43,345 nucleotides of DNA, taken from assembly GCF_000429585.1 (NCBI RefSeq), contig NZ_AUCD01000010.1, positions 1-43,345 on the forward strand. The letters are read 5' to 3'. The stretch is from Atopococcus tabaci DSM 17538 (GTDB taxonomy: Bacteria > Bacillota > Bacilli > Lactobacillales > Carnobacteriaceae_A). Numbering within the stretch: the stretch's first letter is position 1; every line of letters begins with the position of its first letter. Of the stretch, positions 39,546 through 43,345 are shown one piece after another. A model generated the notes under the pieces. That model was not told the DNA's origin, did not search any database, and saw nothing but the letters and a program-made list of their open reading frames with translations. The translations under genes and the position numbers were made by a program.

Positions 39546-39584
39546 TTATTTATTGTGAAACTGTGGTTTTAGGAGGCATTGATT

Positions 39585-40616
39585 ATGAACAAGCGTGCTC
39601 GTATCATTTACAATCCAGTTTCTGGAAGAGAAATGATCAAACGCCAGATTCCAGATATTTTACAAGTTTATGAAGAAGCTGGCTACGAAACCAGTACTTT
39701 CAGCACCACCCCCACGCCATTTTCTGCCCAAAAAGAAGCGGAGAGGGCGGCCAAAGCCGGCTTCGATTTGATTGTGGCTGCCGGAGGAGACGGCACCATC
39801 AACGAAGTGGTCAACGGCATCGCCGGATTGGAAAAACGCCCCCAAATGGCCATCCTGCCAGCGGGAACGACCAACGATTATGCGCGCGCACTCCATATTC
39901 CGCGCAACGATTTGGTGGAAGCGGCCAAGGTCATCCACCGCAATCAATTTGCCAAAATGGACATCGGGAAACTGCGTACGGGAGAAGAGGAACGGTTCTT
40001 CGTCAACATCGGGGCAGCCGGTTATTTGACCGAATTGACCTACGAAGTCCCGGCCCAGCAGAAAGCCATTTTTGGAAACCTGGCTTATTTCGTCAAAGGA
40101 GCGGAGATGCTTCCGAGAATCCGTCCAGTTTCTGTCCGGATTGAATACGACACCGGGATTTACGAAGGCAAAGCGTCCATGTTCTTTGTGGCACTCACCA
40201 ATTCAGTGGGAGGATTCGAAAAAATTGCGCCGGACAAGATGCCGGGCGATGGCAAGTTTACCTTGATTATCGTAAAACCAACCAACTTTGCCGAACTGCT
40301 GCGGCTGATTACCTTGTTGATGAACAATGGAAAGCACGTCAACAGTCCAAATATCATTTACACCAAAACCAGCGCCATCAAAGCGCAGACGATGGACGGT
40401 TCGAAAATGATGATCAACATCGACGGCGAATACGGAGGCGATGCGCCTGCGGAATTCATCAATCTCCAACAGCACATCGACATGATAGCCAACACAGATA
40501 ATATGGCAGCCAATATCGATCCGCGCGATGACGATGCGGAAGAACGCGAAGAAGCGTTTATCCGTCAGGTGGAAGAGCTGGAAAAAAATCAGCAAAATAC
40601 AAACAACGAAGAATAA
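39585..40616 (+). CDS. dgkB: diacylglycerol kinase DgkB
   Basis: A 343-residue soluble lipid kinase that phosphorylates diacylglycerol to phosphatidic acid. It recycles the diacylglycerol left when LtaS (also in this window) uses phosphatidylglycerol. Residues 67-71 form the nucleotide loop GGDGT of the DAGK/NAD-kinase fold (AAGGDGTINEVVNG), and ILPAGTTNDYARAL is the second family motif. The C-terminal tail (from about 315) is acidic and low in complexity. The ATG at 39585 has AGGAGG 8 bases upstream. The position after gatB matches other Firmicutes. Confidence 0.93.
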   Translation: MNKRARIIYNPVSGREMIKRQIPDILQVYEEAGYETSTFSTTPTPFSAQKEAERAAKAGFDLIVAAGGDGTINEVVNGIAGLEKRPQMAILPAGTTNDYARALHIPRNDLVEAAKVIHRNQFAKMDIGKLRTGEEERFFVNIGAAGYLTELTYEVPAQQKAIFGNLAYFVKGAEMLPRIRPVSVRIEYDTGIYEGKASMFFVALTNSVGGFEKIAPDKMPGDGKFTLIIVKPTNFAELLRLITLLMNNGKHVNSPNIIYTKTSAIKAQTMDGSKMMINIDGEYGGDAPAEFINLQQHIDMIANTDNMAANIDPRDDDAEEREEAFIRQVEELEKNQQNTNNEE

Positions 40617-40623
40617 GACGAAA

Positions 40624-40662
40624 AAGAAGACACGAACCTTTAGAGGACGGTCTTCTTTTTTT
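40624..40662 (+). terminator. terminator of dgkB
   Basis: AAGAAGAC (40624-40631) pairs with GTCTTCTT (40650-40657) and ends in a T-run. Confidence 0.75.
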
Positions 40663-40881
40663 GAGGGAAGAAACGTGGGAATGGCGGCAACTCGAGGTGG
40701 GAAAATAATTGAGTTAAGGCCAAAATGTTTATTGAGGTCAACTCGGGATAGGAATGTCCTTGAGTTGGCGTCAAAAAGCTGAATGGAGGCAACTCAAAAG
40801 AAAAAAGCCATTCAGTTGCCAACAAAACGCAAATTGATTCCAACTGAGACTGAAAAAAGCAACGAGTTGCCATCAAAACCG
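40658..40881. repeat. intergenic tandem repeat, 51-bp period (about 4.3 units)
   Basis: Units begin near 40658, 40709, 40760, 40811 and 40862, exactly 51 bases apart; the first is poorly conserved and the last is cut short. The consensus is a TTGAGTTG-type arm, then an A-rich loop, a CAACTC-type arm and GAAAAAAG. The arms covary: TTGAGTTG with CAACTCAA in the unit at 40760, and TTCAGTTG with CAACTGA in the next. A second alternative stem spans units (CTGAATGG 40779-40786 with CCATTCAG 40808-40815). This array fills the 337-base gap between dgkB and rlmCD; no gene is seen in it. Confidence 0.85.
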
Positions 40882-40953
40882 CTGAGAATTTGGTCTCACC
40901 GCACAGGATGGGGTACAATAAACAGAGAAACCAAATAGAATTGAGGAATGCAG

Positions 40954-42336
40954 ATGTCTGCGAAACAAAAACGCACTTATCCAGTAAATAAAAATGAAGT
41001 CTATACCGCGGAAGTGGAGGACTTGACGCACGAAGGACTGGGTGTAGCCAAAGTCAACAACTACCCATTGTTCATCGAAGGAGCGCTTCCCGGAGAAACC
41101 ATTGAATTCAAAGTCATCAAAACCGGAAAGTCTTTCGGATTTGGTCGCTTGTTGGAAGTCAAAGAAACGAGCCCGCACCGAGTGAAAATTACTGACAAAG
41201 CCTACACCCATACTGGAACGATGCCGCTTCAGCATATGACGTATGAAGCGCAGCTGGCCTTCAAACAAAACCAGGTGAAAAATGTCCTTCAGCGCATTGC
41301 CAAACTTCCGGATGTGCCGGTGTTTGACACGATCGGGATGGATCACCCATACGGTTACCGAAACAAAGCTCAGGTGCCGGTCCAAGAAGTAGATGGCAAA
41401 CTCACGACCGGTTTTTTCCGTAAACGAAGCCATGACCTTGTCCCGCTTGAAGACTTTTTGATTCAAGACCCGAAAATCGACGAAGCGATTGTCGTTGTGC
41501 GCGACATTTTGCGCCGCCACCATATCCCAGCATACAACGAAATCGAACACACCGGACTGATCCGCCATATTGTGGTCCGGCGCGGGTATTACACCGGAGA
41601 ATTGATGATTGTCCTAGTCACACGGAAAGAAGGGATTCCAGGAAAAGACGCCATTGTGGAGGAAATCAAAGAGGCTTTGCCGGAAACGGTAAGTATCGTT
41701 CAAAACATCAATTCGAAACGCACCAACGTCATCCTCGGTAGACAATCCGTCGTGCTGTATGGGGAAGACAAATACCGTGACCAGCTGTTGGGATTCACGT
41801 TTGAAATTTCCCATCAATCGTTCTACCAGATCAATCCCACACAAACGGAGAAACTCTACCAAACGGCCTTGGACTATGCGGAGTTGACCGGCGAAGAGAC
41901 CGTCATCGACGCGTACTGTGGTATTGGAACGATTACGCTTGCCTTGGCACAAAAAGCCAAACACGTCCACGGAATTGAAATCGTGGCGCCGGCTATTGAC
42001 AATGCCAAACGGAATGCCGAACTCAATCAAGTGAACAACGTATCGTTTGAGGTCGGTGCAGCAGAAGACATCATGGTTCAATGGGCGAAAGACGGCAAAA
42101 CAGCCGATGTCCTGGTTGTGGACCCGCCGCGCAAAGGGTTGGATAGCCAGTTCATCGATGCCGTATTGATGATGCAGCCGAAACGGATGGTCTATGTCAG
42201 CTGCAATCCATCCACCTTGGCCCGCGACCTGGCCTTGCTGTCAGAAGGGGGCTACACCGTCCACAAAGCCCAACCCGTCGACATGTTTCCTCAAACCACG
42301 CATGTGGAGAGTGTAGTATTGATGTCACGAGCGTAA
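40954..42336 (+). CDS. 23S rRNA (uracil-C5)-methyltransferase RlmCD/RumA family
   Basis: A 460-residue SAM-dependent enzyme that makes 5-methyluridine in 23S rRNA. Domains: N-terminal TRAM (about 8-65), central domain, and C-terminal Rossmann fold with DAYCGIGTITLALA, motif IV VDPPRKGLD and the catalytic Cys in VSCNPSTLARDL. The four Cys ligands of the RumA iron-sulfur cluster are absent: the CGGC-QLQH position reads TGTMPLQH. It thus belongs to the cluster-free branch. The ATG at 40954 is chosen over 40948 because TTGAGGA lies directly before the latter. The exact uridine target (747 and/or 1939) cannot be told. Confidence 0.9.
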   Translation: MSAKQKRTYPVNKNEVYTAEVEDLTHEGLGVAKVNNYPLFIEGALPGETIEFKVIKTGKSFGFGRLLEVKETSPHRVKITDKAYTHTGTMPLQHMTYEAQLAFKQNQVKNVLQRIAKLPDVPVFDTIGMDHPYGYRNKAQVPVQEVDGKLTTGFFRKRSHDLVPLEDFLIQDPKIDEAIVVVRDILRRHHIPAYNEIEHTGLIRHIVVRRGYYTGELMIVLVTRKEGIPGKDAIVEEIKEALPETVSIVQNINSKRTNVILGRQSVVLYGEDKYRDQLLGFTFEISHQSFYQINPTQTEKLYQTALDYAELTGEETVIDAYCGIGTITLALAQKAKHVHGIEIVAPAIDNAKRNAELNQVNNVSFEVGAAEDIMVQWAKDGKTADVLVVDPPRKGLDSQFIDAVLMMQPKRMVYVSCNPSTLARDLALLSEGGYTVHKAQPVDMFPQTTHVESVVLMSRA

Positions 42337-42383: not shown

Positions 42384-43106
42384 ATGATTACTAAAAAAAT
42401 TAAATCTAAGCGAGATGGACTGGAGCTCGAACTTGCTATTATAGAGCCAAGCTCTAATCCTATTGGAATTGTTCAGTTAGTTCATGGAATGTCAGAACAT
42501 AAAGAAAGATACTACGATTTTATGAATTACTTAGCTCAAAACGGTTATGTCTGTGCGATTCATGACCATAGAGGTCACGGAGCTAGCGTTAAAGACTCAT
42601 CTCACTTAGGATATTTTTATACAGAGGACAGCTCTGTTATTGTTGACGATGCTTATCAAGTGACAGAATACTTAAAAGAAAGATATCCTTCGTTAAGTAT
42701 TTCAATATTTAGTCATAGCATGGGCACTCTTGTTTCTAGAAATTATTTAAAGAAATACGATTACGAGCTTGATAAAATAGTTTTATGTGGGCCACCAACT
42801 GAGAATAAATTAGCGGGATTTGCAGTATTTTTAGCAAAAATAAGCAGTGTTTTTTATGGCAAATATAAGCCCAATAAATTTTTAAATTCTTTATCAGTCG
42901 GTCAATATAGCAAGGGATATGAAAGCCAGCTAGATTGGATTTGCGCTAATCCAGACACAGTCAAGGAATATGATGCAGATCCGCTTTGTGGTTTTATATT
43001 TACTACAAATGCATTTATCAATCTTTTTAAATTCGTGGATTGTATAATTAAGCGAGACAGAAAAAAGACATGTTATGATACACTCAAATTAACCTACCAA
43101 AGCTAA
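42384..43106 (+). pseudogene. alpha/beta hydrolase (monoacylglycerol-lipase-like), truncated by IS30
   Basis: Residues 1-217 belong to a lysophospholipase/monoacylglycerol-lipase-type hydrolase: oxyanion motif VQLVHGMSEHKERY, HDHRGHGAS, and nucleophile Ser in FSHSMGT. The last 23 residues (from VDCIIKRD) are read from the IS30 end that begins at about 43034. The catalytic Asp and His expected further on are lost, so the product should be inactive. The gene is visibly AT-richer than its neighbours and uses more A/T-ending codons, which suggests recent acquisition. Intact relatives are around 300 residues. Confidence 0.85.
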
Positions 43107-43345
43107 GGAGAGTGCACCATACATGTCGTACACCCATCTTACCAAAACAGAACTCATATTCATAGAAGAATACTTTGCCATTAATCTCAGTGGTCGCGAG
43201 ATTGCTAAAAAGCTTAAGCGAGGTCATGAAGCAGTCTACAGAGTAATCAGGAAGTTGAAAACGGGTAAAACAGCGATCGATATTTATCTAGAATACAAAG
43301 AAAACAAACAAAAATGTGGACGTAAACCTATTCAACTTCCTCAAG
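43034..43345 (+). mobile_element. IS30-family element, right copy (5' part)
   Basis: This begins at about 43034, within the hydrolase gene, with an end sequence (TGGATTGTATAATTAAGCGA) shared with the left copy. It continues with the transposase ribosome binding site and coding region and runs off the window. Its first 95 bases equal the reverse complement of 1-95. Confidence 0.85.
43123..43345 (+). CDS. IS30-family transposase, N-terminal part
   Basis: The visible 74 residues form the N-terminal DNA-binding region of an IS30-type DDE transposase: a first helix pair (LTKTELIFIEEYFAINLSG), a helix-turn-helix (REIAKKLKRGHEAVYRVIRK), then TGKTAIDIYLEYKENK and KCGRKPIQLPQ, a pattern typical of lactobacillal and enterococcal IS30 members. 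AAGGAG lies upstream. The catalytic DDE domain lies outside the window. It binds the element's terminal repeats; cut and join chemistry is known for the family. Confidence 0.85.
   Translation, partial: MSYTHLTKTELIFIEEYFAINLSGREIAKKLKRGHEAVYRVIRKLKTGKTAIDIYLEYKENKQKCGRKPIQLPQ

Follow-up and report, generated by a model that had tools for sequence, protein, structure and literature searches.

A 51-bp tandem-repeat array between dgkB and rlmCD of Atopococcus tabaci and its possible role as a row of phased DNA sites

The gap between dgkB and rlmCD in Atopococcus tabaci DSM 17538 holds four tandem units of 51 bp, which very probably belong to a published class of 52-nt tandem repeats of constant length and variable sequence. 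We read the array, with roughly even probability of being right, as a satellite array of a dispersed family that works as phased DNA sites for a putative DNA-binding protein. It lies in the window, by which we mean the whole stretch of 43,345 nucleotides that was analysed; the genome is a near relative of Alkalibacterium and Marinilactibacillus.

The array and its copies

In the gap, dgkB is followed by a strong terminator, the array (40677-40880) and the start region of rlmCD:

39579..40616, + strand: dgkB (diacylglycerol/lipid kinase), upstream gene; NCBIfam NF009603 diacylglycerol kinase, E 3e-153; Pfam DAGK_cat
40620..40661, + strand: intrinsic terminator of dgkB, predicted by folding; 14-bp outer stem with a bulge, T-run inside the 3' arm
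40677..40727, no strand: repeat unit 1, cores ACTC 40690 and GAGT 40711
40728..40778, no strand: repeat unit 2, cores ACTC 40741 and GAGT 40762
40779..40829, no strand: repeat unit 3, cores ACTC 40792 and CAGT 40813
40830..40880, no strand: repeat unit 4, cores ACTG 40843 and GAGT 40864
40948..42336, + strand: rlmCD-type 23S rRNA uracil-C5 methyltransferase, downstream gene; NCBIfam TIGR00479, E 1.8e-149; Pfam tRNA_U5-meth_tr, TRAM

The units follow each other in three exact 51-bp steps. Each consists of an ACTC or ACTG core, 17 bases and a GAGT or CAGT core that begins 21 bp past the first, with 26 bases to the core of the next unit. An initial annotation of this DNA had described 51-base tandem units between the two genes and held them not to be random sequence. 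Its coordinates and letters are correct and the repeat is real: identity at lag 51 reaches up to 0.64 across 110 bp, whereas a block-shuffled control (one copy, 418 kb, own genome) had no stretch at or above 0.58 at lags 30-75. Tandem Repeats Finder did not list the array, probably owing to excessive divergence between units. The array sits between two genes with family matches and is non-coding; an 84-aa frame enters it and a 92-aa frame spans it, both of which are permitted by a period of 17 codons. The dgkB terminator folds at -16.7 kcal/mol (z -2.7), with 3 of 200 shuffles equally good, and a simple consensus scan reported no terminator at 40620-40661. All four units end in CAAAA in one phase, so the A-tracts phased by 51 of the initial annotation exist in the window but are a local feature. 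Phased A-tract curvature was rejected as a general property, the tract at this position being absent from most of 23 arrays compared.

The window carries the same inverted-repeat sequence at both of its ends (1-47 and 43082-43344). A serine-hydrolase-type gene (42384-43106) ends at the right copy, after which a helix-turn-helix (HTH_38) frame, presumably IS30-like, begins. Copies of a single insertion sequence seem to mark both ends of the contig.

Related arrays were found in the own genome by DNA search. The covariance-model search for copies that had been suggested at the outset used a model built from 23 two-unit stretches (two GAGC dimers of locus L010, misplaced by MAFFT, were excluded). 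It yielded many copies in the own genome, with 69 matches (E<=1, counting both strands) spread over nine contigs (3, 7, 9, 16, 23, 29, 54, 61, 74), and copies in relatives: of the 21 genomes searched, the own among them, 10 had a match at E<=0.1, four of them weak (best E 0.006-0.03). On contig 54 of the own genome (L009 1500-2010), two near-identical four-unit arrays stand in succession with a terminator-like hairpin behind each, probably because an entire array was duplicated together with its hairpin.

A pattern scan of named genomes gave at least 108 stretches, and 98 of 108 among the matches listed were from Alkalibacterium, Pisciglobus, Carnobacterium and Marinilactibacillus. The other 10 listed comprise one from Lederbergia and nine from beyond, eight of which were inspected and resemble chance matches or other repeats. 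One of these eight, from a Colwellia MAG (L137 3100-3400), is a tandem repeat with a clean 51-bp period and an 8-bp inverted repeat (ACTCCCGA/TCGGGAGT), and is either a chance match to the pattern or a similar thing outside Firmicutes. In Lederbergia citri (Bacillaceae; L144 7401-7700), a 51-bp array with an ACTC-N17-GAGT core lies right behind a terminator-like hairpin and looks genuine. Ten loci were dropped: L112 (Paraburkholderia), L124 (Syntrophomonas), L133 (Paceibacterota), L134 (Mesonia), L137 (Colwellia), L144 (Lederbergia), L155 (Nanopelagicales), L163 (a planctomycete), L168 (Lachnospiraceae) and L173 (Aphanothece). They are excluded from the period and arm permutation, palindromy, location, synteny, core-drift and core-change counts, and included in the core-spacing (135 arrays), arm-by-distance, column-identity and neighbouring-frame-pair counts.

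Of 398 Bacilli genomes, among which the window's own family is otherwise unrepresented, three had the exact GAGT pattern: the own genome (20 forward matches), genome G013 (163 forward) and a third with a single match. Read backward as a control, the pattern matched one other genome of the 398, once per strand. Searches for carriage by mobile DNA gave, for phages, 14 IMG/VR contigs that fit the pattern, all with chains stopping at the pattern's own four cores. A longer array was present in none of the three inspected, one of which (L237) has a two-copy GC-rich 52-bp repeat. One Carnobacterium array had 0 matches among 72,556 plasmid records.

Core, arms and pairing

The constant parts of the unit are the core, ACTC-N17/18-GAGT-N26/27, and, most of all, its period. 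In 135 distinct arrays, ACTC and GAGT are separated by 17 or 18 bases in 712 of 724 steps, and GAGT and the following ACTC by 26 or 27 in 658 of 671; the same scan of reversed sequence, as a control, returned 0 arrays. Cores of the same type are 51 or 52 bp apart in 1193 of 1212 cases (125 arrays). A spacer of 27 follows a loop of 17 in 24 of 182 units and a loop of 18 in 2 of 419, and the 17/27 combination is the usual form in four arrays only. Thus, spacing changes in some units compensate and 52 is kept, which makes the period tighter than its parts.

Between arrays, alikeness is 0.95-0.99 at the cores, 0.51 and 0.55 at the adjoining loop bases and 0.25-0.45 in the arms and remaining loop, the high core value being partly built in because most loci were retrieved via the GAGT core. 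Inside one array, it is 0.75-0.88 at the inner nine arm positions and 0.60-0.75 in the loop. In 32 diverged arrays picked by ACTC spacing only, the GAGT columns had an identity of 0.82 versus 0.53 for the rest, a level attained by 140 of 1152 other four-column blocks. These signs of constraint partly bear out the initial view of a selected element.

Palindromy at p<0.05 was found in 61 of 118 arrays with the core counted, which is palindromic by selection; among the 41-bp arrays described below it was found in 2 of 10. With the core excluded, the corresponding measure is the arm match, which was at least 0.6 in 40 of 107 arrays and below 0.45, that is, with arms not complementary, in 34 of 107. 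Three arrays (L138, L131, L142) have two distinct arm types all through, and arm distances vary from family to family. Palindromy is therefore frequent in the arrays and not defining. The GAGT family and some others have 13-bp arms around an 8-bp spacer, a layout that resembles loxP and dif and could point to an array of targets for a recombinase or other site-specific enzyme. We consider this very improbable, as the layout is missing in the published Bacillus consensus repeats, in which arms are often at a half-distance of 3-13, and in the 41-bp arrays, and the arms differ between arrays of one genome.

The initial annotation had named arms that could pair, all of which are present in the window: TTGAGTTG (40760-40767) with CAACTCAA (40790-40797), TTCAGTTG (40811-40818) with CAACTGA (40841-40847) and, as a second stem, CTGAATGG (40779-40786) with CCATTCAG (40808-40815). 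It took the first two pairs to lie inside one unit and to covary. Both actually bridge neighbouring units, joining GAGT of one to ACTC of the next, and the window has one double change only (CAGT with ACTG), which is not a trend. Across units, both cores of a pair were changed in 2 of 642 cases (one of the two complementary) versus 2.99 expected, and within units in 0 of 695 versus 2.76 expected (125 arrays). The window's own CAGT/ACTG pair is outside the 642, since the chain finder drops degenerate array ends.

The arms gave the same answer. Their complementarity is equal for own, neighbouring and distant units of one array (0.71, 0.71 and 0.71 at position 7). When partners were permuted inside each array, within-unit pairing was 0.6748 against a permuted mean of 0.6814, with 1994 of 2000 permutations as high (the 40 of 107 arrays with matching arms), and across-unit pairing was 0.6899 against 0.6863, with 178 of 2000 as high (37 of 105 arrays). 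Because arms match distant units as well as they match their partners, arm similarity is a property of the array and not of the single hairpin. A first count of pairs in 30 units had been above shuffles that carried no control for array-wide similarity; with distant units of the same array as the control, covariation of an RNA hairpin failed. No pair-specific compensatory changes were detected by arm comparison, permutation or core-change counts.

If transcribed, the array would be a row of hairpins and might serve as a small RNA, a sponge or a transcript-end structure. The fold of 40665-40885 (z = -5.9 versus dinucleotide shuffles, as expected from inverted repeats), the 30-unit count and the inverted arms of many arrays are in line with this, as are the 52-nt repeats of B. 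coagulans that match published RNA-seq (PMC8161180; PMC8625621). Such an RNA element is nonetheless improbable in our estimation, given the absence of pair-specific covariation in arms and cores alike and a covariance model that matches both strands. The array also begins past the dgkB terminator (which ends at 40661, with the first unit at 40677), so a place for the element within the dgkB transcript is not supported. Nor is the proposed RNA switch, as there is no unit-specific pairing and the cores do not change jointly. The remark that no named family fits is right for Rfam, with 0 window matches at gathering scores and four matches, all under the gathering score, for five array loci, but not for the literature, where the class of arrays was already published (PMC8161180).

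Period classes, genomic place and turnover

A lag scan that uses no motif found further arrays of unrelated sequence in the own genome, all at lags 51-53, with families beginning GAGTTGG.., GAGTTTGAAATA.., CACTTTTACGTGA.. and ACTTCATTAATTG... With a coding filter, which set aside five more lag-51 stretches, the scan gave 41 stretches in 12 genomes, 38 of them at lags 40-41 or 51-53 (two at lag 24, two at 40, six at 41, one at 43, 11 at 51, 18 at 52 and one at 53). Without the filter, 1.87 Mb from 14 genomes gave 62 stretches, of which 46 were at 40-41 or 51-53 and 15 of the remaining 16 at multiples of three, like coding repeats; a shuffled copy of the 1.87 Mb gave 0. In this second scan N was masked, because several stretches at lags 15 and 30 were runs of N (seven of eight checked were mostly N; L324 was not). 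Densities are not comparable between genomes, as the stretches of G000, G013 and G009 were chosen partly for holding arrays.

Among the 14 genomes, all 11 stretches at lags 40-41 came from two related genera: from G007 and from G003 and G010, the latter two of one genus. In the stretches scanned, these three had none at lags 51-53, and G000, G013, G008, G002 and G009 had none at lags 40-41. The 40-41-bp arrays are located as follows:

G007: L286 9795-10420 and 16230-16385; L287 16150-16285; L327 9640-9810; L329 19320-19700
G003: L320 8030-8205; L321 6260-6465 and 16240-16440
G010: L333 5430-5615

Expressed in helical turns, 52 bp is close to five (10.4 bp per turn) and 41 bp close to four (10.25 bp per turn). 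Twenty other Bacilli genomes (0.39 Mb) had no 41- or 52-bp array, and gave one lag-53 stretch together with CRISPR-like and coding repeats.

The arrays favour gene 3' ends and convergent gene pairs. For the 95 arrays with both neighbours seen (30 of 125 were too close to the locus end for a call), the neighbours are codirectional in 47 cases, convergent in 41 and divergent in 7. Background pairs of open frames with gaps of at least 40 bp in the same loci, array pairs included, are codirectional in 271 cases, convergent in 99 and divergent in 92. Measured from the arrays, gene 3' ends lie at a median of 124 bp and 5' ends at 193 bp. Terminators were seen beside 59 of the 129 gene 3' flanks and 7 of the 61 5' flanks, more than half of the 3' flanks having none by this simple test. 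Twenty arrays lie inside an open reading frame by frame count, and we take these frames for chance.

In the dgkB-rlmCD gap of relatives, the GAGT-type array is absent from 11 of 11 syntenic loci (13 loci, two not syntenic), and the window array thus looks like a gain. Genome G007 has a 41-bp array in its own dgkB-rlmCD gap (L224 1050-1170). Arrays are also missing in a relative in other gaps (L139, L254, L258, L262); L146 and L132, an artefact of the removal of duplicate arrays, and L180 were left out of these absences. Conversely, at loci chosen for having arrays, there are eight species pairs in which both members have an array in the same gap (flanking proteins 52-99% identical), and the units differ in each of the six pairs inspected.

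Turnover of this kind is what a neutral or selfish satellite would show, its units amplified and homogenised by slippage and unequal exchange, its palindromes made by template switching, and the whole tolerated beyond terminators. Units that are similar within arrays and dissimilar between them, arm similarity that is array-wide and not pair-wise, as homogenisation yields, and the intergenic place are also consistent with it. We regard this explanation as possible rather than probable, but as the main and a serious rival, since homogenisation explains the arm data too. It leaves unexplained why unrelated sequences should share a period of 51-53 bp, or of 40-41 bp in other genera, why spacing changes compensate and why the core is kept as its neighbours drift; the same-gap arrays of the eight species pairs also count against it.

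Possible phased DNA sites and known repeat systems

The phased-site reading holds that the array most likely acts as double-stranded DNA. Each unit would be two inverted half-sites, each made of a GAGT core and an array-specific arm, and the 51-52-bp pitch, about five helical turns, would bring the half-sites to one side of the helix. A putative DNA-binding protein would bind them and polymerise or bridge along the array, and the resulting complex, beyond terminators or between convergent genes, might anchor the nucleoid or separate transcription units as an insulator or a barrier to supercoils. We infer phased protein binding on DNA from the near-whole-turn periods, the drift-resistant core, the place at gene ends and the lack of RNA covariation taken together; pairing that is not specific to a unit fits half-sites recognised singly. 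A nucleoid or DNA site had been among the options of the initial annotation, and it is the one we favour, in view of period, core and place. The weakest point of the protein model is that a single sequence-specific protein would hardly fit the several families of one genome, whose arms are unrelated. Inverted arms that are not universal (match below 0.45 in 34 of 107 arrays; 2 of 10 41-bp arrays palindromic) count against half-sites, and the transcription reported for the 52-nt repeats of B. coagulans (PMC8161180; PMC8625621) counts against a reading as DNA only.

More tentatively, the arrays of some Bacilli may form a genus-specific scaffold at gene ends, in which a protein would polymerise on one face of the helix, at a pitch of 52 bp (five turns) in some genera and of 41 bp (four turns) in their close relatives, reading mainly the spacing together with a short core and marking the boundaries of transcription units. 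Should the helix set the period and the arrays indeed mark gene ends, function would become a testable question, and the 41/52 difference among related genera is a natural contrast by which to find the protein via gene content.

REP elements and BIMEs are made up of palindromes that alternate in orientation and lie past the ends of genes. The arrays resemble them in having often palindromic, dispersed units beyond gene ends, with a constant tetranucleotide and variable arms, and Y1_Tnp, the domain of the RAYT transposase that would mobilise such an element, is present in the array-rich genomes G000 (5 matches) and G009 (7). In contrast to REP/BIME, the arrays have a fixed 51-52-bp pitch, and the Y1 transposase is missing in four array-bearing genomes (G013, the richest, and G002, G011 and G012). 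Y1_Tnp occurs in 4 of 17 genomes; G014 has two model matches at E about 0.02 and G016 none. A REP-like origin is thus mostly refuted, and we give it very little credence. CRISPR arrays are likewise regular repeats, but the loops here are repeated and not unique, the period is 51-52 and there are many arrays per genome; a CRISPR-like array in L347 has lags of 71-74.

The 52-nt repeats were reportedly first described by Subirana and Messeguer (J Bacteriol 2020). In the literature covered, such arrays are described only in PMC8161180 and PMC8625621, and no function is known from these papers. The class, counted at 1886 repeats of 51-53 nt among 176 Bacillus genomes, has constant length and variable sequence and is reported from Firmicutes only, mainly Bacillus and Paenibacillus; a polymerising protein or small RNAs were suggested (PMC8161180). 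Transcription was reported in B. coagulans (PMC8161180; PMC8625621). The same authors describe 20-21-nt repeats, and a few of 40-41 nt, of constant length near whole helical turns. The 40-41-bp arrays of G007, G003 and G010 may belong to these, from which the window array differs in its 51 bp.

Arrays found here share with the 52-nt class the 51-53-bp period, the non-coding place, a usual size of 4-10 units, the presence of several families in a genome, short conserved signals with their reverse in one unit, occurrence in Firmicutes and partial conservation among relatives; they differ in being from Lactobacillales. Length falls within the 51-53 nt of the class in the window (51 bp three times) and beyond it (51 or 52 in 1193 of 1212), and the own genome holds several unrelated families of equal length. 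The SATFIND settings used for the class, at least four repeats with 60% of equal length (PMC8161180), agree with four 51-bp units, while SATFIND itself might reject such divergence. A dyad test of the 27 consensus repeats printed in PMC8161180 gave 18 at p<0.05, which are not all independent, the two thermoamylovorans families being mirror images and horikoshii and m3-13 near copies. To the description of the class our analysis adds the core spacing, the place at gene ends, the lack of pair covariation, a second class, of 40-41 bp, in related genera and the palindromy test.
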